Of a DNA stretch of 32,624 nucleotides, positions 9,016 through 31,201 are shown piece after piece. Under the pieces are notes generated by a model. It was not told the origin of the DNA, made no database searches, and was given only the letters and a program-made list of their open reading frames with translations. The stretch covers positions 1-32,624 of the forward strand of contig JAGQNP010000008.1 in assembly GCA_020428005.1 (NCBI GenBank), read 5' to 3'. This stretch comes from Candidatus Saccharimonadota bacterium (GTDB taxonomy: Bacteria > Patescibacteriota > Saccharimonadia > Saccharimonadales > JACQNP01). The position numbers and the translations under genes were made by a program. How positions within the stretch are numbered: the first letter of the stretch is position 1; each line of letters opens with the position of its first letter.

Positions 9016-9406
9016 GGGGCTGAATTTAAGCTCGACGTTGGACTTTATTAGTTAGAGAAGCAGGTCGCTTGCTGAGCGTTATACGGCAAATTGAATAAAT
9101 GCAAAAACATTTACTCAGCGACTAGCTAGCGCATTTTCAATGCCTAAGCTAGATTTCGCACTAGCTGCCTAATTATTAGACAGCCGTCACTAAAGCGACG
9201 CCAGATAGTTTTAAATGACGCCATATTTATCTGGATGCTCACATACTCTTGATCTGTAGTATGTGCTAAGATTTTGGATCTGCGGACTATGATTTTTTGG
9301 TTATTTATCGGTCATTGTCTCAAGTCAACCCAAATGACATAAACCTGTAGATGCTCTAACAAAAATAAACTAGCGGACGTGGGGGCAGTACCCACCAGCT
9401 CCACCA
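9016..9406 (+). ncRNA. ssrA: Transfer-messenger RNA (tmRNA, ssrA)
   Basis: Rescues stalled ribosomes and tags the unfinished protein. The ends form the tRNA-like acceptor stem: GGGGCTG (9016-9022) pairs with CAGCTCC (9396-9402), followed by an encoded ACCA. GCTCGACG near the 5' end is the usual D-arm region. The tag frame starts at GCA 9101 and ends with TAA at 9170: 23 codons, beginning AKTFTQR and ending KLDFALAA, with the ALAA degron typical of ClpXP targets. The resume codon is assigned from the only long frame that ends in ALAA. The T-loop reads GGCAGTA instead of a TTCRANT-type loop, while its GTGGG/CCCAC stem is intact. A terminator follows. Confidence 0.95.
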
Positions 9407-9417
9407 TAAGCATTATG

Positions 9418-9446
9418 ACCTCTGTTATTTTTAACAGGGGTTTTTG
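9418..9446 (+). terminator. ssrA intrinsic terminator
   Basis: ACCTCTGTTA and TAACAGGGGT pair (one G-T pair) around TTTT, followed by a T-run. It also lies just past the stop of the convergent 9460 gene. Confidence 0.88.
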
Positions 9447-9459
9447 TAATACTCTTAGA

Positions 9460-9927
9460 CTAAGAGTCTAGCTCTGGACTGGATTCCATTGGAACTTCCC
9501 AGCTCTCAACATCAACGGCATCAGGGTATTTCCAGGCAAGGCTTCCAGCTATTGCTGTCTCACCCATTCTATCTGTAGGCATATGGAAAACATGTTCAGC
9601 ACCAGCACTGTATGCATGATGAAAACCTCTTTCAGCATGCCTTTCTTCTTGCCGTCTTATGAAATCAATAATATCGAACCGACGATCACTAGTGAAGAAT
9701 TTATCTGAAGTAGCATCAAAGTCTGCACCACTTACATGACCCTTGTCTTGTTTAGCTCGACCATCGACACATTCATCTCTATTCGCACTAGTATCTTTTC
9801 TGGCTGCTTCACCGTCCGAAAAGTCAAAAGGCATTGAGCCTAGCATAATACCAGCGTCACCAATTAAATCTTTTAGACGTTCTTTAGTCTCTGGTGAAAT
9901 TCTTAAGTGTTTACCTCGCATACTCAT
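9460..9927 (-). CDS. Hypothetical protein, soluble
   Basis: Not recognised. A 155-residue acidic, soluble protein without signal peptide or TM helix. The N-terminal part (GKHLRISPETKERLKDLIGD) looks like a helical segment common in small regulators; the middle has RFDIIDFIRRQEERHAERGF and the rest is low in recognisable motifs. The ATG at 9927 was chosen because a promoter (TTGCCT-N17-TATTGT) ends six bases before it; an in-frame TTG at 9933 would begin inside the -10 gap. Its position beside ssrA says nothing firm about function. Coding potential is supported by length and a fitting promoter only. Confidence 0.6.
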   Translation of the reverse strand: MSMRGKHLRISPETKERLKDLIGDAGIMLGSMPFDFSDGEAARKDTSANRDECVDGRAKQDKGHVSGADFDATSDKFFTSDRRFDIIDFIRRQEERHAERGFHHAYSAGAEHVFHMPTDRMGETAIAGSLAWKYPDAVDVESWEVPMESSPELDS

Positions 9928-9933
9928 AACCAA

Positions 9934-9962
9934 ACAATAACATAAAACATGCTAATAGGCAA
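9934..9962 (-). promoter_or_regulatory. Promoter of the 9460 gene
   Basis: Minus-strand TTGCCT (9957-9962), 17-base spacer, TATTGT (9934-9939), then six bases to ATG 9927. It fits the leaderless pattern seen elsewhere in the window. Confidence 0.45.
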
Positions 9963-9999
9963 TTATTGAGGTTTCCTGGTAGCTCCATCCTGCTCATGC

Positions 10000-10028
10000 T
10001 TGCTATTCACTACTAAGATAACTAAGCT
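10000..10028 (+). promoter_or_regulatory. thrC promoter
   Basis: TTGCTA (10000-10005), 17-base spacer, TAAGCT (10023-10028), then TATAAA and the ATG. No Shine-Dalgarno; leaderless start likely. Confidence 0.5.
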
Positions 10029-10034
10029 TATAAA

Positions 10035-11462
10035 ATGAGCGATAGATTAATTAGCACACGAGATCCCGAACGTATTGAATATGGTTACTCTGATGCCCTA
10101 TTACAGGGGCTAGCACCTGACGGTGGCCTTTATGTACCTGGTGCGTATCCGACAGTTGATGAAGAATCACTTCGAGCTATGAGTGGCTTGGACTACGTTG
10201 ATCTATTCACGAGGATTAAGAGCCTTTATGTTGACGATATACCTTCAGAAACTCAAGCCCAACTTGCTTCTGCTGCCTATAGCAAAGAAAAATTTCCAGT
10301 ACCAGACGGCAATATAGTTCCTCTTACACAAGTTGATAGGAACTTTTTCATTCAGAATCTTTCATTAGGTCCTACGGCTGCCTTTAAAGACATGGCATTA
10401 CAACCTTTGGGTCAAGATATGAATCATGCTCTTTCAGAAAGAGAACAGTCACTTATGCTGCTTGGTGCTACTTCTGGTGATACTGGTTCTGCAGCTGAAG
10501 CGGCCATAAAAGGCTTGGGAAGAGCTGGACTAGTTATGTTGAGTCCAGAGAATGGTATGAGTGATTTTCAGTCAGCACAGATGAGCGAGTTAACAGGAGG
10601 GAATATTTTAAACCTCAGTGTTAGAGGTAATTTTGATGCCTGCCAAGCACTTGTTAAAGCGATTAAGTCTGATGCTGAGTTTGCCGATTTAGGAGCAGTA
10701 AACTCAATAAACTGGGGAAGAATAGCTTCGCAAATTCCATATTACTTCTCGGGTTACTTACATGCTGTTGACGGTTTAATTGGCAGACCAGTTGATTTTG
10801 TTGTACCAACAGGTAACTTCGGGAATATTTTAGCTGGTTACATTGCAAGAGAAATGGGGCTACCAATAAGAAGACTTATTGTTGCAACAAATGAGAACAG
10901 TGTATTGAACAATCTAATCCAGGACGGTAAGTATCAAAAAACACCAGCACAAATAACTACAAGTCCATCAATGGACATTTCTGAAGCATCTAACTACGAA
11001 CGACTTTTATTCGATATTTTTGAAGGCGATGCACTAAAAGTTCGAGACTACATGCAAATGTTTAAAAATACTGGTACTGTAAGGTTCGAAGATTTTGATC
11101 TACCATACTATACGCTTCGAGAAATGGGCTTTGATAGTGGAGTGTCTCATGCAGCTACACGTCTAGAGTCAATCCGTTGGGTTCATGCAAAAAGAGGCAT
11201 TGTAATAGATCCGCATACTGCAGATGCTGTTACTGTGGCAAGCAGAAAGGCAGATGAAGATGTGCCGATAGTATGTATGTCCACTGCTTTGCCTGTTAAG
11301 TTTGAATCAACAATTGAATCTGCCCTAGGTTTTGTTCCAGAGCGTGAAGACCCACGTTTTATTGGTATTGAAGAAAGAGAACAAGGTGGTTTTGTTGTCG
11401 TTGATGACGATATCGATGAAGTAAAAGAAAAGATTCGATCATTTCGTAGTGATTCACTCTAG
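10035..11462 (+). CDS. thrC: Threonine synthase
   Basis: A PLP enzyme that converts O-phosphohomoserine to threonine. The N-terminal cap (APDGGLYVPGAYP) is typical for ThrC. The PLP Lys is K118 in GPTAAFKDMALQPLG, and GATSGDTGSAAEAAI forms the phosphate-binding loop. VPTGNFGNILAGYIA is a further family motif. Its 475 residues match the longer fungal/enterobacterial type. No other threonine gene is adjacent, so its substrate must come from elsewhere, from the host, or the enzyme acts in a different direction. Whether a threonine pathway exists cannot be judged here. Confidence 0.96.
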   Translation: MSDRLISTRDPERIEYGYSDALLQGLAPDGGLYVPGAYPTVDEESLRAMSGLDYVDLFTRIKSLYVDDIPSETQAQLASAAYSKEKFPVPDGNIVPLTQVDRNFFIQNLSLGPTAAFKDMALQPLGQDMNHALSEREQSLMLLGATSGDTGSAAEAAIKGLGRAGLVMLSPENGMSDFQSAQMSELTGGNILNLSVRGNFDACQALVKAIKSDAEFADLGAVNSINWGRIASQIPYYFSGYLHAVDGLIGRPVDFVVPTGNFGNILAGYIAREMGLPIRRLIVATNENSVLNNLIQDGKYQKTPAQITTSPSMDISEASNYERLLFDIFEGDALKVRDYMQMFKNTGTVRFEDFDLPYYTLREMGFDSGVSHAATRLESIRWVHAKRGIVIDPHTADAVTVASRKADEDVPIVCMSTALPVKFESTIESALGFVPEREDPRFIGIEEREQGGFVVVDDDIDEVKEKIRSFRSDSL

Positions 11463-11501
11463 GACATATCTCCCTAGGGGATAAGTAACATTCTTGCAAC
11501 T

Positions 11502-11577
11502 TTGCTAAATTTATTAGCTTATGCTATAATTTAGTAGATAAGTAAAGCGCTTATGTATGTAAGCGCGTTTTATTTTT
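11502..11577 (+). promoter_or_regulatory. typA promoter followed by terminator-like hairpin
   Basis: TTGCTA (11502-11507), 17-base spacer, TATAAT (11525-11530). Downstream, GCGCTTA (11547-11553) pairs with TAAGCGC (11560-11566), followed by GTTTTATTTTT. This looks like an intrinsic terminator inside the leader, i.e. an attenuator. It could instead end read-through from thrC. Confidence 0.6.
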
Positions 11578-11582
11578 AGCCT

Positions 11583-13403
11583 ATGAAACAAGATCCAAGT
11601 AAAATTCGAAACATTGCAATAATTGCACACGTTGACCACGGCAAAACAACTTTAGTAGATGGTCTATTAAAACAATCAAAGACTTTTCGTGATAATCAAG
11701 CAGAAATGAGCCAAGAACTGGTAATGGATAGTGGTGACCAAGAGAAGGAACGCGGAATAACAATTACTGCAAAAGTGACTGCCGTTCAGCACAACGAATA
11801 CAGGATAAATATTATTGATACACCTGGTCACGCTGATTTTTCTGGAGAAGTTGAACGAACATTGAACATGGCTGATGGATGTATTCTGATTGTGGATGCT
11901 CAAGAAGGACCAATGCCACAAACAAAGTTTGTATTGGGTAAGGCTTTGGCTTATGAACTTCAACCAATAATTATTATTAACAAGATTGACAAATCTGGTA
12001 GCCGAATAAAAGAAGTAGAAGATGAGATTGCCGAGTTGTTTCTGGAGCTTGCAGTACATGAAGACCAGTTACATTACCCCGTATATTATGCAATTGGGCG
12101 TAGTGGTAAGGCGTGGGATTCAGTGCCAACCAATACAGATGAAGATGCCGATCTATCTGTGATATTTGATGCAATTGTTAATCACATTCCGGCTCCGAGA
12201 GTCGAGATTGATAAGCCATTTCAGATGCTAGTCACGGCATTAGCATGGGATAACTTTAAAGGAAAGTATGCAGTAGGAAGAATAACAAGGGGCTCTATTA
12301 AGCCCAGTAGTGCGGTAACACTTTGTAAGAAGGATGGATCCATTGCTAAGGCAAAAATTGACAATGTTTTTATGAGTCATGGGCTGTCAAGATTCGAAGT
12401 GCAAGAAGGTGTGGCTGGCGATATCATACAGATTACTGGAGTGGGTGATGCTCAAATAGGGGAAACGATTGCTGATGCAGAGCAGCCGGAAGCACTACCT
12501 GTGCTGGAAATTGAAGCACCGACGCTGAAAATATACCTAGGACCAAACACCTCACCGTTTAAGGGTAAAGAAGGTGAGTTTGTTACTAGCCGTCAAATTG
12601 GCGATCGTTTACAAAGAGAGCTTGAAACCAATGTTGGGTTACGTGTCGAAGAAGAAGGAATAGGGTTCTTGGTGAGTGGGCGCGGAGAATTACATCTTAG
12701 TGTTTTGATAGAGACAATGCGTCGAGAAGGTTTTGAGTTTGAGGTAGGACGACCACAAGTTGTAACAAAGGAAGAGGATGGTCAAACCGTTGAGCCTATC
12801 GAAGAGCTAATTATTGAAGTTCCAGCAGAGCATGTAGGTGCTGTTCAGATGGAGTTAGGTGCAAGAAGAGCAACTCTAAAGGAACAGTTCGCGAGCCCCA
12901 AGGGAGTTACAAAACTAGTCTACGAACTGCCAACCCGAACTTTTATTGGGCTTCGAAATATCTTGATGACACAAACAAAGGGAACCGTTGTCATGAATTC
13001 CTTGATGTTAGGCTATAAACCACTTGGAGCAGTATTAACTCAACTTAGAAACGGAGTTATTATTGCTTTTGAGACAGGTACGACTACTCCTTATGCTCTT
13101 CAAATGATGGAAGACCGTGGCGAGTGTTTTATTGGTCCTGGTGTGAAAGTATATGCTGGCCAGATCGTTGGGCTTAATAAACGTCAAGAAGATATGGAAA
13201 TGAATGTTTGCAAGACTAAGCACTTAACAAACATGCGAAGTTCATCTAGTGATGGGGTCGTACAGCTAACATCCCCAAGAATATTAAGTTTGGAAGAATG
13301 TCTCGACTTTATTGAAAATGATGAATTATTAGAAGTCACGCCATCATCTTTGCGCCTTCGTAAAAGTGAACTAGATTCTAATAAACGAAAAAGACAGAAA
13401 TAG
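11583..13403 (+). CDS. typA: Ribosome-associated GTPase TypA/BipA
   Basis: A translational GTPase of the EF-G family that binds ribosomes and helps 50S assembly and stress or cold growth. G1 is AHVDHGKTTL (15-24), G2 is ERGITITAK, G3 is DTPGHADF, G4 is NKID. Domain II and the EF-G-like C-terminal domains follow (GRGELHLSVLIETMRREGFEFEVGRP), and the BipA-specific C-terminal end is complete. Length of 606 residues is normal. No Shine-Dalgarno is visible ahead of ATG 11583, despite a leader of about 45 bases that holds the hairpin above. Confidence 0.97.
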   Translation: MKQDPSKIRNIAIIAHVDHGKTTLVDGLLKQSKTFRDNQAEMSQELVMDSGDQEKERGITITAKVTAVQHNEYRINIIDTPGHADFSGEVERTLNMADGCILIVDAQEGPMPQTKFVLGKALAYELQPIIIINKIDKSGSRIKEVEDEIAELFLELAVHEDQLHYPVYYAIGRSGKAWDSVPTNTDEDADLSVIFDAIVNHIPAPRVEIDKPFQMLVTALAWDNFKGKYAVGRITRGSIKPSSAVTLCKKDGSIAKAKIDNVFMSHGLSRFEVQEGVAGDIIQITGVGDAQIGETIADAEQPEALPVLEIEAPTLKIYLGPNTSPFKGKEGEFVTSRQIGDRLQRELETNVGLRVEEEGIGFLVSGRGELHLSVLIETMRREGFEFEVGRPQVVTKEEDGQTVEPIEELIIEVPAEHVGAVQMELGARRATLKEQFASPKGVTKLVYELPTRTFIGLRNILMTQTKGTVVMNSLMLGYKPLGAVLTQLRNGVIIAFETGTTTPYALQMMEDRGECFIGPGVKVYAGQIVGLNKRQEDMEMNVCKTKHLTNMRSSSSDGVVQLTSPRILSLEECLDFIENDELLEVTPSSLRLRKSELDSNKRKRQK

Positions 13404-22679: not shown

Positions 22680-23528
22680 ATGTCAAAGACAAAAATAAAA
22701 CAACTATTTTCTTGGCCTCGTTTGGCTGCGCTAGCTGCGTTAGCTTTTTTGGTTTTATTGAGTGGAAGTAGTTCAATTTTTGCTCAGGCTGTTACTCAAG
22801 GTTTTGGTGCTGACACGGTTCTTCAAAAGGGAGTAGTAGTTCAACTTGATAAAACTGACACAACCAAAGTCAAACCCGTTACATTAGAGTCAATCGAAGA
22901 GATGTATGGTGTTGTTGTTGATGCCAACGATGCGCCAGTTACTTTATCTAATGAAGGAAGAAAAGTATTTGTTGCGACTGTTGGGCCATTTGACGTACTT
23001 GTTAGTGATCAGGGGGGTACAATTAACCCTGGAGATTATCTAACAATATCTGCTATTGAAGGTGTGGCAATGAAGGCAGGGGATAAAGAGCCTGTTGTTG
23101 TTGGTAGAGCTCTAGATGCTTACGATGGTAAAACTAATGTAATTGGTGCCGCTCAAGTCACGGACAACAACGGGGCAAGCCGGACAGTTAATCTTTCTAG
23201 GATAAGAACTGATATAAGTGTATCGAGGAATCCCTTGCTAAGGGGTGAAACACCAAATGTCCCTGAGTTTTTAAGAAAAGCTTCCGAAGCAATTGCTGGT
23301 AAAGAAGTAAACGCTGTGAGAATTTATCTCAGCGTCTTCGTTTTTACTGTTAGCACAATTGCTGCCGGAAGTTTGCTATACGCAGGTGTTAGAAACGGGT
23401 TAATTTCAATAGGTAGAAACCCACTCAGTAAGAAAACTATAATTCGTGGCATGTTTCAGGTGATATTAACTGGTTTAATAATTTTCATTGTTGGGCTTTT
23501 TGGGGTATATTTACTACTAAAGCTTTAA
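22680..23528 (+). CDS. c-subunit-like membrane rotor protein with external domain
   Basis: A 282-residue protein in the atpE place. Residues 13-36 are a signal peptide (LAALAALAFLVLLSG, cut near AQA). Residues ~38-205 form a beta-rich external domain with GGTINPGDYLTISAIEG, like motifs in tail-fibre and surface repeat proteins. TM1 is about 213-237, then the loop R246-N247-P248 as in c subunits (Arg-Gln/Asn-Pro), and TM2 about 253-281. Topology is that of a c subunit with both ends outside. TM2 has no Asp or Glu; the position 18 residues after the loop Pro, where E. coli c has Asp61, is Leu266 beside Thr264. It should not carry protons. The homology is inferred from place, loop and topology. 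Confidence 0.78.
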   Translation: MSKTKIKQLFSWPRLAALAALAFLVLLSGSSSIFAQAVTQGFGADTVLQKGVVVQLDKTDTTKVKPVTLESIEEMYGVVVDANDAPVTLSNEGRKVFVATVGPFDVLVSDQGGTINPGDYLTISAIEGVAMKAGDKEPVVVGRALDAYDGKTNVIGAAQVTDNNGASRTVNLSRIRTDISVSRNPLLRGETPNVPEFLRKASEAIAGKEVNAVRIYLSVFVFTVSTIAAGSLLYAGVRNGLISIGRNPLSKKTIIRGMFQVILTGLIIFIVGLFGVYLLLKL

Positions 23529-23556
23529 CAGTACATTATAGGTGGGTAATTAATAA

Positions 23557-24180
23557 GTGGAGATGTGGGAACTAGGACTGATTTTGGGCATGTTGTTAGC
23601 AGCAACAGTAGCTTTTATTTGGCTGGCTCTTAATATTGGTTCTGGTGCAAAGAATAAAAAAAATCCAAACGATGCCTTTACCGAACAGGCTGAGAAAGAT
23701 GTTGAACATATCTTTAATGATGATTTTAGGGAAGAATTAAGGAATAGGGGACGGCTTCATTTTGAAAAAATTATTGGTGAAAACGCCATGTTTTTACAGC
23801 AAGATCTTCGACTCACTACTTCACAGCTAAATGAATTCATGAAGACCGAAATAACTCGCAAACTACAAGAAGAATTTGCTAAGTATGAAGAGTCCATAAC
23901 TGATGCTAAACAGCTTGCAATTGATTCAATAAATAAAACGCAAGAAGCTATTGAGCAGCAACGAAAAATGATGAGCCAACAACTTAGTCAGGAGCTTGCT
24001 AACGAGAAAGCTCGCTTGATACATAGATTTGAAGAAAATATGGCAGACATCATTAATCACTATGTTTTGGCGGCTATTGGTGATCAAATTGACCTGAACG
24101 ATCAACTCGAATACATACTAAGCGACCTTGAGACAAACAAAGAAGCAATAATTAGAGATATTACTGATGGAGCAGGATAA
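23557..24180 (+). CDS. atpF: F-type ATPase b-subunit-like stalk protein
   Basis: A 207-residue protein with one N-terminal TM helix (about 5-27, LGLILGMLLAATVAFIWLAL) and a long, charged, mostly alpha-helical part to the C terminus, as expected for the peripheral stalk. Sequence identity to standard b is low; the assignment rests on place, topology and helix pattern. Start is GTG 23557 with AGGTGG ahead, or ATG 23563. The end overlaps the delta gene by 14 bases. Such a stalk would hold alpha3beta3 still against a turning rotor, so its retention suggests real rotary work. Confidence 0.82.
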   Translation: MEMWELGLILGMLLAATVAFIWLALNIGSGAKNKKNPNDAFTEQAEKDVEHIFNDDFREELRNRGRLHFEKIIGENAMFLQQDLRLTTSQLNEFMKTEITRKLQEEFAKYEESITDAKQLAIDSINKTQEAIEQQRKMMSQQLSQELANEKARLIHRFEENMADIINHYVLAAIGDQIDLNDQLEYILSDLETNKEAIIRDITDGAG

Positions 24181-24676
24181 GTCGATAATTGTATTACCAA
24201 CGGGCGTAACCGGCAGGATGGATGTTGGCAGGTTAGTCAGAGAGGTTGATGCATTAGATCAGTTTTTGGAACAGGCTGCGGTGAGAAAACCGGGTACTCC
24301 AATGCAAATGCCAAAAACCAGCAAGTTGTTAGACGAGATGCTGGAAACAAACAAGATAAATGCGCTAGTTGAAGATGACAGGAAAAGACTACTCAATTTT
24401 TTAATAACAGTTAGAGCTAAAGCTCCTGTTATGCACATGAGTTTTAGTGCTGATCCAGCTCCTCTGTTTACTCAAAAACTCGTCACATGGCTTAGAGATA
24501 ATATTCATCCTCTTGTGTTGCTGCATGTAGGGATACAGCCGAATATTGGCGCCGGATGTATTGTCAGAACAACAAATAAGCAATTTGACTTGAGCTTAAA
24601 GCAGGATTTTGCAAAACAACACCCATTATTGATGGCAAAAATTCATGGTTCTGTTCAAGAGGTAAGTCATGAGTAG
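24167..24676 (+). CDS. atpH: F-type ATPase delta-subunit-like protein
   Basis: A 169-residue soluble protein. The C-terminal part [20 protein letters not shown] matches the typical delta signature (beta strand, conserved Gly and an exposed turn), followed by DLSLKQDF. The N-terminal helical bundle is strongly diverged. Delta joins b to the top of alpha3beta3. It overlaps b by 14 bases and alpha by eight, so translation is coupled along the operon. Confidence 0.82.
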
Positions 24677-26095
24677 TGGTAATAAACATTTTGACCTGTT
24701 GATAGAGTCTGGTAACCCTGTAGGTGAAGTTGTGTCTGTTGACGCTTTTCTGATACGCATACACGGACTGCAGCCTTGCAACATTCACTCCTTAATTATG
24801 TTTGAGGATGGTAGCAAAGGGTTTGTTAACCAGGTATCAGAAAACTATGTTACAGTGCTGCACTTAGGTTCTGAGCATCTTCAGATTGGAATGGTGGCCG
24901 TACTTCAGCATCAAGAACTGGTTTGTAAAGTCGGTAAGGACTTCATCGGAAGAGTGGTTAGTGTTACGGGTGAGCCACTTGACGGAAAGGGGCCTATAGC
25001 TGCAGACTCGGTATGGAAAGTATTTAATACTGCTCCTCCGTTGTATGAGAGGAAACTATTAGACACTCAGTTAGAGAGTGGTGTTACGGCAATAGATGCC
25101 TTATTCCCTGTTGTTAGAGGGCAAAGGATGGCATTACTTGGAGACAGTAAGTCTGGAAAGAGTACACTGGCGACCCAGCTTACAATAAATCAAAAGAATA
25201 CTGATCAAGTTGTTGTTTATGTTTTGATTGCAAAGCGACGAACTGACGTCGATACATTACTGTCTAGATTACAAGAAACCGATTCCCTAAAGAAAGCAAT
25301 TGTGGTTGTATCGACTATGTTTGAATCTCTTATAATGAGCTATATAGCGCCCTATGTTGGCTGTGCTATGGCTGAATACCTTTGGCAAGTTCACGCCCAG
25401 GATACCATTATTATCTATGATGACTTAACGAGTCACGCACATGCATATAGAGAGGTTGCCCTGATGTCTGGTGTTAGTCCGGGTCGTGATTCCTATCCTG
25501 GTGATATGTTCTATGCTCACTCAAGTTTGCTAGAAAGGGCAGGTAGGCTGGATAAGAATTCTGCCCATCTTACTAGTATTCCTGTTGTAAATGCTGCGGG
25601 CGGTGACATTACAGCGTATCTACCAACCAACATAATGTCTATTACTGATGGTCAGTGGATACTAGATATGGATATTTTTCGAAATGGTATTAGGCCTGCT
25701 GTAAACATGGGTCTATCAGTTACACGTGTCGGTGGTGTTGGTCACAATAAACGACAAAAGTCTTTGGCTGCTCAAACTTTAAAAACTTTGGCTGACTATC
25801 GACAAGCCGAGGAGTTCTCTCACTTTGGTTCGGAACTAGCTTTAGAGTCTAAGAAGGCATTAGAAACAGGCAAGCGGATATTCGAGCTACTTACTCAGTC
25901 TCCAAGTGACACCTACTCATTACTTAGTCAGCAGTTGATGATGGACGTAATTCTGAACCTTGAAGATGGGGCTGTGCTGGACATCAACACTATGAAGCTT
26001 AAGGTAAAAGAATATGCAGACAAAATCGAAAATGATGATCAGTTTGAAAAAGTTCGTGATGAGCTGAAAGTCGGTAGTCAGGTGGAACTTAAGAA

Positions 26096-26099
<4 letters not shown>
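24669..26099 (+). CDS. atpA: F1-type ATPase alpha subunit
   Basis: A 476-residue non-catalytic subunit that pairs with beta. P-loop is GDSKSGKST (158-166) where standard alpha has [25 protein letters not shown] is the Walker B region, [20 protein letters not shown] follows, and the Arg finger is R353 in GLSVTRVGG. About 20-25 residues are missing from the N terminus, where standard alpha contacts delta, in line with a changed stalk. The C-terminal helical domain is present. Start ATG overlaps delta; the end overlaps gamma by ATGA. Confidence 0.94.
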
Positions 26100-28257
<2,158 letters not shown>

Positions 28258-28274
28258 TTCCAGAAAGTCTTTAT

Positions 28275-28589
28275 ATGTCTGATAGTGAGCAACCAAACGA
28301 GAGTACAGAAAAAAAACAGGATGACAAGGTTGATACTGGCGATGAAGACCATATGCACGTCAAGGTTTACGCTCCCTTCAAGGTTTATTTTGATGGCGTT
28401 GCAACTAGCATTTCCGCCGTTAATGATACTGGCCCATTTGACATTTTGCCTAAACACCACAATTTCATGACCTTAATTAGTCAAGGAGAAGTGATTGTAC
28501 GTACAGACAAAGCAGAAGAAAAGTTCAAGATCAGTCACGGCATCATGCATGTTAAAGCCGATGATGTTGTAGTGTTTCTAGACGTTTAG
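28275..28589 (+). CDS. atpC: F1-type ATPase epsilon-like subunit, short
   Basis: A 104-residue protein. Residues ~27-104 fit the beta-sandwich of epsilon (KVYAPFKVYFDGVATSISAVNDTGPFDILPKHHNFMTLI, with the typical GPFDILPxHxN). The C-terminal helical hairpin, which inhibits rotation in ATP synthases, is absent. The N terminus has about 26 extra acidic residues. It would link gamma to the rotor ring without the brake. It is 17 bases behind beta and the last gene of the operon. Confidence 0.9.
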   Translation: MSDSEQPNESTEKKQDDKVDTGDEDHMHVKVYAPFKVYFDGVATSISAVNDTGPFDILPKHHNFMTLISQGEVIVRTDKAEEKFKISHGIMHVKADDVVVFLDV

Positions 28590-28600
28590 GAACTTTATTT

Positions 28601-29569
28601 TTATTCAACTGCCATATAATCGAAGCTAAACGACGTTCCGGGTGAAGCCGCATTAGTGCTGCAGATACTAAAGCTTGAAGCTGATCTATCTACATAATAG
28701 TTCAAGCCACCACCTGCGCCACCGACTGGGGTAACTATCACGTGAGGTGTAGCGTTGAAGGAATTGGTGAAGTAAATCGTAACAAAACAACCTGCAGGTG
28801 GTCCGCCACCGATATTTATCTGTACAGTTCCCGCTGTATCTGTGCCACTAACTGAACTCGTCCCACCGGAGCCAAGCGCACCACCGTTTACTTTGCCTGG
28901 TGTTCCTCCCCCGGCATCTAGATGCCTACTAAATTGCAAATCACCACTTATCTGTAAACTTTGCGTTGAAACAACTGGAGCAGAAATTCCGCCGCCAAAA
29001 GATCCGCCACCACTTACGGTAAGATTTTTCTGAACCGTTAATTGACCCTGAATACTCACATCGCCGGAAACAGAAAGTTTGTTTGCTTGAATCTGGTCAA
29101 AATTACTTTCGCCAGAAACAGTTAGGCCAGGTAAGCTTAGTGAACCACCCACTTTAATTGTTCCAGCGACATCAATGCTGTCACGAAACAGTACTTTGCC
29201 TGTAAAAATAGCGTTTGATTCGATGCTTAAAGTTTGCTTTGGGTCACCAACCTTCGCCTCGCTACCTTTTAGTTGCTCGAGAGTTTCTTTGGTAAGAGGT
29301 TGGGTATTGATGGTTGTCTCTACATCGGCTTTTTTATTGCGTTGTATTCCTACAAAAATTATTGCTCCAGTTAGAACAAGTATAAGAATGAAGAGCAGTA
29401 AGTAAATATTTAGATGAGAAACTAAGCCTTGAATTCGTTTGGCAAAACTTACTTTTGGCTTATCTGCTTTCGCATTATCGCCACCAGTCTTTTGCTGTTC
29501 GTTTTCAACTACTGTCCCCGGATCTTCTAGGGTATCTAATTCGTTGTTTTCCTCTGGTTTGTTATCCAT
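28601..29569 (-). CDS. Membrane-anchored surface protein with fibre-like repeats
   Basis: A 322-residue surface protein. An acidic cytoplasmic N terminus (~1-50), TM helix at about 53-75 (LLLFILILVLTGAIIFV), then repeated VSGxxxxxGxLTV-like strands (about 110-200) like a beta-helix or trimeric fibre shaft, and a C-terminal head (~250-322) with VTIYFTNSFNATPHVIVTPV and FDYMAVE. That C-terminal pattern resembles fibre/tail-spike heads. Two Cys in the head could pair. It converges with the F1-like operon, its stop being 12 bases from epsilon. Binding to a host surface is a reasonable guess. Confidence 0.82.
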   Translation of the reverse strand: MDNKPEENNELDTLEDPGTVVENEQQKTGGDNAKADKPKVSFAKRIQGLVSHLNIYLLLFILILVLTGAIIFVGIQRNKKADVETTINTQPLTKETLEQLKGSEAKVGDPKQTLSIESNAIFTGKVLFRDSIDVAGTIKVGGSLSLPGLTVSGESNFDQIQANKLSVSGDVSIQGQLTVQKNLTVSGGGSFGGGISAPVVSTQSLQISGDLQFSRHLDAGGGTPGKVNGGALGSGGTSSVSGTDTAGTVQINIGGGPPAGCFVTIYFTNSFNATPHVIVTPVGGAGGGLNYYVDRSASSFSICSTNAASPGTSFSFDYMAVE

Positions 29570-29705: not shown

Positions 29706-30398
29706 ATGACAAAATATCAGTTGGGGGTGAATCAGGCCAGGCAAAGAAAATTCTTTAGATGGGCTTGGAAGATTTTGGCGGTAATAATCTTGCTAGTTTT
29801 GCTAGTATTGCTGGCAATATTTGTTGACAGTTGGTTACAAAAGAGGAAGGCTAATACACCTTCTAAAGCGACTGATCCTGTTACATCAACAATTGCCCCG
29901 AGTACCCAGATATTCACTTCCCCTTATTTTCAATTTCAAACAGATAAAAACTGGCGAGCCATAGCCAATGAGTCAACTACAACAAAATATGTTTACCGAC
30001 GTGGAACTGATAATCACGTAGAAGGTGACATGACTGTCTATATTAATTCAAGCCCTGATGACGTTCAGGCAACAAGAGTGATGCCAGTTGTCTTAAATAG
30101 TGATGGCACGAGCCTTGAAGCTAGCTTTGTATCAGATCATTGCAAGAAAAACCTATCAAAACCTCAGCAAGAGAACACAGGGGAGGTTACTCTGACACTG
30201 AATTCGGTTAGGTTTGTTTGTGATGTTGATGGCAATCTATTCTCGGTAATTGTCGGACTAGAGAATGCCACGCCAGTTATGAATTTTAGGAGGCCTGATG
30301 GCACAAACGCTAATTATATAATTGTATTTACGGACCTTAGGTTTACCCCGCAGGCCGACGAATTGGAAAAAATTATGGACACCTTTCAAATTCGCTAA
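29706..30398 (+). CDS. Membrane-anchored extracellular protein, unknown
   Basis: Not recognised. 230 residues: a basic N terminus, one TM helix at about 19-44 (ILAVIILLVLLVLLAIFV), a Thr/Ser/Pro linker to about 70, and an external domain (YFQFQTDKNWRAIANEST, FTDLRFTPQADELEKIMDTF) reminiscent of small lipoprotein-like beta domains. Two Cys (DHCKK, FVCDVD) may pair. AGGA lies seven bases before ATG. It precedes two secreted proteins on the same strand. Confidence 0.82.
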   Translation: MTKYQLGVNQARQRKFFRWAWKILAVIILLVLLVLLAIFVDSWLQKRKANTPSKATDPVTSTIAPSTQIFTSPYFQFQTDKNWRAIANESTTTKYVYRRGTDNHVEGDMTVYINSSPDDVQATRVMPVVLNSDGTSLEASFVSDHCKKNLSKPQQENTGEVTLTLNSVRFVCDVDGNLFSVIVGLENATPVMNFRRPDGTNANYIIVFTDLRFTPQADELEKIMDTFQIR

Positions 30399-30427
30399 CT
30401 GCCTATGTGCTACTATGTAATTGTCTT

Positions 30428-31201
30428 ATGAAAAAACACAGATTTGGGATAGTATTAATGACCTTTGTTTTGGTACTTGGAAGTGGCTCAGTGTATGCCC
30501 AGTCTTCATCATCAACTAATTATCGTGTGGATGAAACATTCTTTGGCTCTGGCGGTGAACTTGATGCCCAAAGCTCCAGTTATCGTGCACAACAATCAGC
30601 AGGTGCTCTCGGTGTCGGATTTGCCAGTAGTACAAGTTATGATGTGAATGGCGGATTTTTAACCCAGAATAACGCATATTTAGAGATGTCAGTCCAGAAT
30701 ACCACAGTCGATCTAGGTACTCTTTCCAGATATAGTACCGCAAGTGGTTCAGCTCAAGCTGGTGTGTGCAACTGTTCTTTCACTGTCAGAACTTACGTTT
30801 CTTCACAATATGTAATCTATTCAATTACCAATCCTCCAACCAGCGAAAACGGTGATGTTCTAACAGCCAAGGCTTCTCAAGGTGCACCTTCTGCCGATCC
30901 CGATGTTGAAGAGTTTGGAATGAACATTGTCGCCAATACAAGCCCAGCTAGTATTGGCGCTGACCCAGTTAATTATCCAGATAATACTTTTGCTGATGGT
31001 GAGGCAGCTACTGGCTATGACACAACCAACCAATACAAATATGGTGTTGGTGATATTATTGCTCGCTCACAAGCTACACCTGGAAATTCAGCAACGGGTA
31101 GGACAGATTACACCGTAAGCTTTATTGCCAAAACCAATGCTTCTACTCCAGCTGGAACTTATACAATGAGACAGCAACTAGTCGTCGTTCCAACTTACTA
31201 A
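30428..31201 (+). CDS. Secreted beta-sandwich-like protein
   Basis: A 257-residue exported protein. Signal peptide ends near VYAQS (MKKHRFGIVLMTFVLVLGSG). The rest is Ser/Thr/Asn-rich beta structure. The end TPAGTYTMRQQLVVVPTY closely resembles the end of the next gene product (TPTGSYTVTTTYIATPTF), so both share a C-terminal module. Two Cys stand next to each other (GVCNCSF). ATG 30428 was taken as start since the signal peptide begins there; an upstream in-frame GTG (30407) adds an unlikely sequence. Possibly a subunit or partner of the 31316 surface protein. Confidence 0.82.
   Translation: MKKHRFGIVLMTFVLVLGSGSVYAQSSSSTNYRVDETFFGSGGELDAQSSSYRAQQSAGALGVGFASSTSYDVNGGFLTQNNAYLEMSVQNTTVDLGTLSRYSTASGSAQAGVCNCSFTVRTYVSSQYVIYSITNPPTSENGDVLTAKASQGAPSADPDVEEFGMNIVANTSPASIGADPVNYPDNTFADGEAATGYDTTNQYKYGVGDIIARSQATPGNSATGRTDYTVSFIAKTNASTPAGTYTMRQQLVVVPTY

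Follow-up and report, generated by a model that had tools for sequence, protein, structure and literature searches.

A subunit c-like protein without the ion-binding acid opens a second F1-type operon in Saccharimonadia and may connect ATP hydrolysis to the cell surface

Introduction

Rotary ATPases couple ATP to ion flow. In the window, which is the whole 32,624-nucleotide stretch of Saccharimonadia DNA analyzed here, a tightly packed seven-gene operon (positions 22680-28589) has the order H1-b-delta-alpha-gamma-beta-epsilon. H1, the first gene, stands where the subunit c gene (atpE) would be expected, and its predicted product combines a c-like hairpin with an external domain. The locus raises two questions: (i) whether H1 is related to the membrane rotor of ATP synthase and (ii) what an F1-type ATPase could do with a rotor that has no recognizable ion site.

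Results and Discussion

Gene content of the operon

The genes and the parts of H1 are as follows.

22680..23528, + strand: H1, 282 aa; signal peptide, ectodomain and c-like two-helix hairpin, acid absent from transmembrane (TM) helix 2
22680..22784, + strand: H1 signal peptide, approximately residues 1-35, its hydrophobic stretch ending in SIFAQA (from the sequence; A35-Q36 conserved in close homologs)
22785..23264, + strand: H1 ectodomain, about residues 36-195, predicted beta barrel like phage decoration, cement and preneck-appendage proteins (AlphaFold2, Foldseek and profile comparison)
23313..23417, + strand: H1 TM helix 1, residues 212-246 (AlphaFold2)
23412..23423, + strand: H1 loop G-R-N-P at residues 245-248, corresponding to the RQP/RNP loop in subunit c (alignment)
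23421..23522, + strand: H1 TM helix 2, residues 248-281, Asp and Glu absent (AlphaFold2 and alignment; G265-L266 at the ion-site position)
23557..24180, + strand: putative b-like stator subunit, coiled coil with one N-terminal TM (hhalign to canonical b 70%, controls <2%; operon position)
24167..24676, + strand: putative delta/OSCP-like stator subunit (weak PF00213 match, E 0.052; hhalign 24%; operon position)
24669..26099, + strand: alpha-like subunit (PF00006, E 1.5e-67; atpA 403 bits, under the equivalog cut-off)
26096..26953, + strand: gamma-like central shaft, c-ring foot Y-I-F-E-P retained (PF00231, E 2.4e-28; foot residues)
26950..28257, + strand: beta-like catalytic subunit, catalytic residues retained, DELSEED acids gone (PF00006, E 1.3e-63)
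28275..28589, + strand: epsilon-like subunit, beta-sandwich alone, C-terminal helices absent (PF02823, E 4e-14, no PF00401; length)
28601..29569, - strand: bactofilin-like surface protein with a single TM and an exterior rich in beta structure (PF04519, E 2.4e-5, under the cut-off; adjoins the operon in H1-bearing genomes; AlphaFold2 pLDDT 68)
29706..31201, + strand: two exported or membrane-anchored proteins (29706-30398 and 30407-31201), frequent operon neighbors (synteny)

Several adjacent operon genes share 4-14 bases of overlap. The operon has the features of an F1, namely gamma, epsilon, and catalytic alpha and beta subunits in which the P-loop, Glu, Arg and Mg-ligand residues are present. 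No a-subunit gene was found in it, and it thus lacks the pairing of a with c for ion transport that marks a complete FoF1 synthase. A canonical FoF1 is encoded elsewhere in this genome, split between contig C50 (a, c, b and delta) and contig C29 (alpha, gamma, beta and epsilon); the sole a subunit found in the genome belongs to this separate canonical operon.

Architecture of H1 and loss of the ion site

A preliminary description of this DNA had proposed that H1 carries a signal peptide, an external domain and a hairpin with R246-N247-P248 in its loop, and occupies the atpE position of an atp-ordered operon. Both proposals hold: H1 is the first of the seven genes, about 160 exported residues follow the signal peptide, and the AlphaFold2 model (mean pLDDT 90.6) places two helices on either side of G245-R246-N247-P248. 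In H1 and its homologs (hereafter H), the hairpin loop has a mean net charge of +3.5 and the hairpin ends are near neutral. Together with the signal peptide, the positive loop suggests the topology of subunit c, in which the N-terminal domain and C-terminus would be external and the loop cytoplasmic.

The H1 loop reads GRNPLSKK; the canonical c of the same genome, which has a Glu in TM2, reads GRNPESSK. GRNP is invariant in all 40 rows of an alignment of H1 homologs (A1), and the R and P are kept in 57/57 hairpins of a second alignment (A2). One H hairpin (L107:8016-8252) has the loop A-R-Q-P, of the E. coli c type, instead of G-R-N-P. The GxGxGxG glycine pattern by which normal c-rings pack is absent from TM1 of Saccharibacterial H, and is kept only in the large fusion proteins described below; ring size, and even ring formation, is therefore uncertain.

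For the ion site, offsets were counted from the loop proline, and 30 canonical c subunits from within the order served as the comparison set. All 30 have an Asp or Glu at offset 15-17. By contrast, a TM2 acid was found in none of the 62 Saccharimonadia H hairpins at any offset of at least 12, and the few acids present are confined to offsets 2-11, at the cytoplasmic end. H1 itself has Gly-Leu (residues 265-266) at the position of the acid and no Asp or Glu anywhere in TM2, as previously claimed. Fusion-bearing homologs are widespread, and every one lacks the acid at the ion site, including H-like proteins of other classes and the large fusions; in L178 and L179 the only acid is at offset 33, at the C-terminus. 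Nor was an a subunit found near H loci in the neighborhoods examined, in Saccharimonadia or in other classes, in line with the earlier expectation. A rotor that has neither the TM2 carboxylate nor an a subunit to work with would be unable to carry ions.

The complex could still be an ion pump or synthase if H1 were mixed with canonical c, borrowed the canonical a subunit or used another ion residue. We consider this very improbable. Canonical a and c are indeed encoded in the same genome, but on different contigs and in a separate operon, the carboxylate is missing throughout the 62 hairpins, and the inhibitory domain of epsilon has been lost.

Descent of the hairpin from subunit c

Searches of H1 against Pfam and NCBIfam matched no family, and there was no match to PF00137 (subunit c). 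Direct hhalign comparison of H with Saccharibacterial c gave a probability of 76%. This match reflects the loop alone, since permuting the TM columns with the loop kept leaves the score no lower, and it was dropped as sole proof of the relationship. A weak, single-member match to TrwL (E 0.056) raised the possibility of a VirB2/TrbC-like pilin; this was rejected as outweighed by the c links.

The relationship is instead established through intermediates. We searched 380 genomes of the phylum with a profile of A2, which comprises 57 H hairpins and excludes canonical c. Its matches included H-like proteins from other classes (250-310 aa), a number of larger fusions and numerous ORFs of 70-100 aa. 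In a sample of neighborhoods, the short ORFs are AtpE, encoded between a and b of canonical operons (six confirmed, 23-28 bits), and the long proteins open a second F1 operon without a. Of seven matches of A2 among 177,635 PDB sequences, five are ATP synthase c, the top two included; the matches are individually weak (best E 0.046), and the selection is specific. The larger fusions (664-820 aa, plus one of 2589 aa) match strongly on both sides: hhalign probabilities are 99.4% for H to other-class H, 97.8% for H to the large fusions and 97.9% for the large fusions to canonical c, and each of these links beats all permutations in which the loop is left intact (0/80). Moreover, two fusions of 670-680 aa with Ig-like domains (L181 and L184) pass the PF00137 cut-off of 24 bits, with 30.1 and 30.6 bits. 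In Foldseek, the H1 model aligns with Chloroflexus c at a TM-score of 0.92 (rmsd 1.0 over 68 columns, E about 0.09), which, with no E-value under 0.001, supports c likeness but does not prove it. The suggested link to c subunits is thereby borne out: judged by the profile comparisons, the H1 hairpin is c-derived and shares common ancestry with subunit c.

H1 thus resembles subunit c in its two-helix hairpin, its GRNP/ARQP loop, its homology via the bridging fusions and its place ahead of b-delta-alpha-gamma-beta-epsilon. It differs in the missing TM2 acid, the added signal peptide and ectodomain, the lack of a partner a subunit and, in Saccharibacteria, the lost TM1 glycines.

Acid-less c-like hairpins also end eight proteins of 497-2589 aa with Ig-like or NHL-propeller ectodomains (L178, L179, L180, L181, L182, L183, L184 and L185). 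These genes sit in a-less F1 clusters, except L183, near which no cluster was seen.

Distribution and exceptions

Homologs of H1 occur in 41/61 relatives from the order, in 81/119 genomes of the order and in 90/195 sampled genomes of the class; nearly all named relatives are genomes from metagenomes, labeled Candidatus Saccharibacteria or Saccharimonadia. A related-locus query with the single H1 protein gave no match, and a closer homolog set (A3) yielded loci. Neighborhoods of the relatives repeat H-b-delta-alpha-gamma-beta-epsilon, mostly in the same order. Given homologs in 41 of 61 order relatives, the mostly shared operon order and the invariant GRNP of A1, the pattern is not due to chance.

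There are exceptions. In five genomes with a well-covered locus (G001, G007, G017, G029 and G051), the interval from the cysteine desulfurase gene to b contains no H1. An H2-type gene (see below) is present elsewhere in G001, G007 and G017, and in G051 an H gene adjoins a bactofilin-like gene on another contig. No H was detected in G029, which is 100% complete and has a complete second motor operon (L081), by a query that had no positive control among the 8 genomes searched. At one locus (L088) the cluster reads H-alpha-gamma-beta-epsilon, and genes for b and delta are absent between H and alpha; a complete cluster (L089) is on the same contig.

The genome under study also encodes a paralog, H2 (286 aa, 31% identical; L036:1095-1955, on contig C27), with no adjoining motor genes. 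H2 adjoins genes for L21 and Ile-tRNA synthetase and large surface proteins.

The motor subunits

The beta residues K155, E181, R182, D242 and R246 are kept in all 74 beta sequences from a-less sets, indicating that beta is probably a live ATPase. The same 74 sequences have lost most of the DELSEED-loop acids and kept all catalytic residues checked. A beta tree separates the canonical from the a-less sets, with a midpoint root that is arbitrary.

In E. coli, the c loop can be cross-linked to the gamma region around E208-P209 and Y205. The residues matching E208-P209 are kept in 75/75 gamma sequences, and an aromatic residue is found at the Y205 position in 70/75. Epsilon of the a-less sets is 82-130 aa long, versus 125-150 aa in canonical sets, and PF00401 is present in canonical epsilon and absent from the operon epsilon. 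The beta-sandwich, the part that contacts the ring, is retained; loss of the C-terminal helices would fit hydrolysis with no need of inhibition. Nearly all H operons retain genes for b and delta. Their assignment to the b-like and delta-like families is putative and draws on weak profile matches together with gene position.

Divergence of alpha and beta, both below their equivalog cut-offs, could be read as the mark of a functionless, decaying duplicate of ATP synthase. This is scarcely credible for an operon that is intact across the class and in other classes, and whose five beta catalytic residues are conserved without exception.

We also considered an F1-like ATPase that powers the export or assembly of surface fibers, as FliI/SctN does in type III secretion, with H1 as a pore or platform. 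Giant surface proteins and exported proteins adjoin H genes, as such a role would predict. However, alpha and beta score best against atpA and atpD, far above the FliI/SctN models, and on inspection the signal peptides of H1 and of the surface proteins look ordinary. Type III ATPases are also without the gamma, delta, epsilon and b set, all of which is retained here. We regard an export function as quite unlikely.

A predicted surface-directed motor

We suggest that the operon probably encodes an ATP-hydrolyzing rotary motor dedicated to the cell surface, in which a c-derived, ion-dead rotor turns external domains. Hydrolysis by the alpha-beta-gamma-delta-epsilon complex would turn gamma-epsilon, as in F1. 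Gamma and epsilon would grip the GRNP loops of an H1 oligomer, probably a ring, and b and delta would hold the F1 head. A rotor that transports no ions would have to pass torque mechanically through the membrane, here to the external N-terminal beta domains. These could then move or load surface fibers, involving the bactofilin-like partner or the giant fibers encoded beside H2. Such a machine may be used in host attachment, gliding, surface remodeling, or the reeling or loading of fibers.

Several observations count against a motor: the lost TM1 glycines, the restriction of direct H1-c similarity to the loop, F1 sets with no H1 in the operon, and G029. Alternatively, H1 could be a passive membrane tether whose loops hold gamma-epsilon or the whole F1, in which case hydrolysis would have a cytoplasmic or regulatory role and the ectodomain would not be rotated. 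The missing ring-packing glycines are consistent with a tether, as is an ectodomain that is a common beta module, also present in surface proteins. Yet retention of the b and delta stator in nearly all operons would be pointless without torque, and the presence of unrelated folds (phage-cement-like, Ig-like and NHL-propeller) on the same hairpin suggests that the exterior is the output. We therefore consider a tether unlikely.

If the complex does rotate as a surface motor, F1 torque would do work outside the cell. The system has gained external domains on its membrane rotor and lost its ion site, with the motor, shaft foot and stator retained. This may be relevant to the retention of two F-ATPase operons in host-dependent Patescibacteria with reduced genomes.

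Comparison with known systems

Mycoplasma species have a type 2 G1-ATPase (M. mobile gliding) and a type 3 F1-like X0 ATPase (MIB-MIP) (PMC3369863, PMC11864180, PMC12994834). Like the operon described here, these are extra F1 sets beside a normal FoF1 and are tied to surface machinery. The Saccharibacterial operon differs in keeping b and delta and in having no gene for the 12-TM Protein 1. The corresponding NCBIfam models fall short of their cut-offs (MSC_0618, 366.8 versus 570; MMOB1670, 338.9 versus 850; MMOB1660, 325.6 versus 600), and no operon protein reaches the cut-off of MSC_0619. Mycoplasma Protein 5 resembles H1 in having a signal peptide, an exported part and two C-terminal TMs, a comparison of architecture only; no similarity of Protein 5 to c has been reported (PMC3369863, PMC11864180, PMC12994834). 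For the M. mobile gliding motor, MMOB1610 and MMOB1650 have been named solely as candidate gamma partners (PMC11864180). A c-derived rotor with an ectodomain offers a concrete candidate architecture for the membrane coupling of that motor.

'Symbiotic' type-2/3-like F-ATPases of Omnitrophota, whose beta was placed with 'Ca. Saccharimonadia' (TM7) sequences, have been described by alpha/beta phylogeny and by their location near type IV pili (PMC10066038). By that description they share with the present operon a non-respiratory F1 (PMC10066038); the main text of the paper mentions neither a c subunit nor protons. The preliminary statement that no system of this kind had been described was accordingly too strong, given the Mycoplasma F1-like X0/G1 analogs and this TM7 beta relative. 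It stands for the rotor itself: our search of the open-access literature turned up no account of a c subunit that is ion-dead and bears an ectodomain.

N-ATPases retain ion-translocating Fo parts. The H1 operon resembles these alternate F1Fo enzymes as a second F-type operon beside a canonical one (PMC10656485), and its proteins fall under the cut-offs of the NCBIfam alt_F1F0 models.

More broadly, and tentatively, we see a serious possibility of an undescribed class of machine: ATP-driven transmembrane rotors in which ion-dead c-rings with interchangeable external domains (phage-cement-like barrels, Ig-like chains or NHL propellers) would let F1 drive external structures across Patescibacteria, with Mycoplasma Protein 5 as the same kind of part. 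If so, Protein 5 would explain how the M. mobile gliding motor is coupled to the membrane.

The ectodomain and its possible surface partners

The H1 ectodomain resembles the barrels of phage decoration, cement and preneck-appendage proteins; in other lineages the same hairpin bears Ig-like or NHL-propeller ectodomains. The bactofilin-like gene lies beside the motor locus in 19/23 cases with H1 and in 0/7 without (Fisher p 1.6e-4, from hand-assembled counts), and H1 and the bactofilin-like gene co-occur by genome (both in 72/119); the p-values of both comparisons are optimistic because the genomes are related. Foldseek of the AlphaFold2 model of the bactofilin-like protein (pLDDT 68) gave no significant match. 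In 19 large ORFs, an H1-type ectodomain directly adjoins a domain equivalent to the C-terminal half of the bactofilin-like protein. This fused arrangement suggests that the H1 ectodomain may bind the bactofilin-like protein when the two are encoded apart, and the latter is a probable extracellular partner of the rotor.

The 19 ORFs are giant surface ORFs of up to about 4000 aa (for example L263, G114:C1:190304-191197), and in them the bactofilin-type domain directly follows the H1-type ectodomain. In L181, genes at 9107-12666 immediately neighbor the Ig-like fusion rotor and encode dockerin, cohesin and WxLIP peptidoglycan-binding domains.
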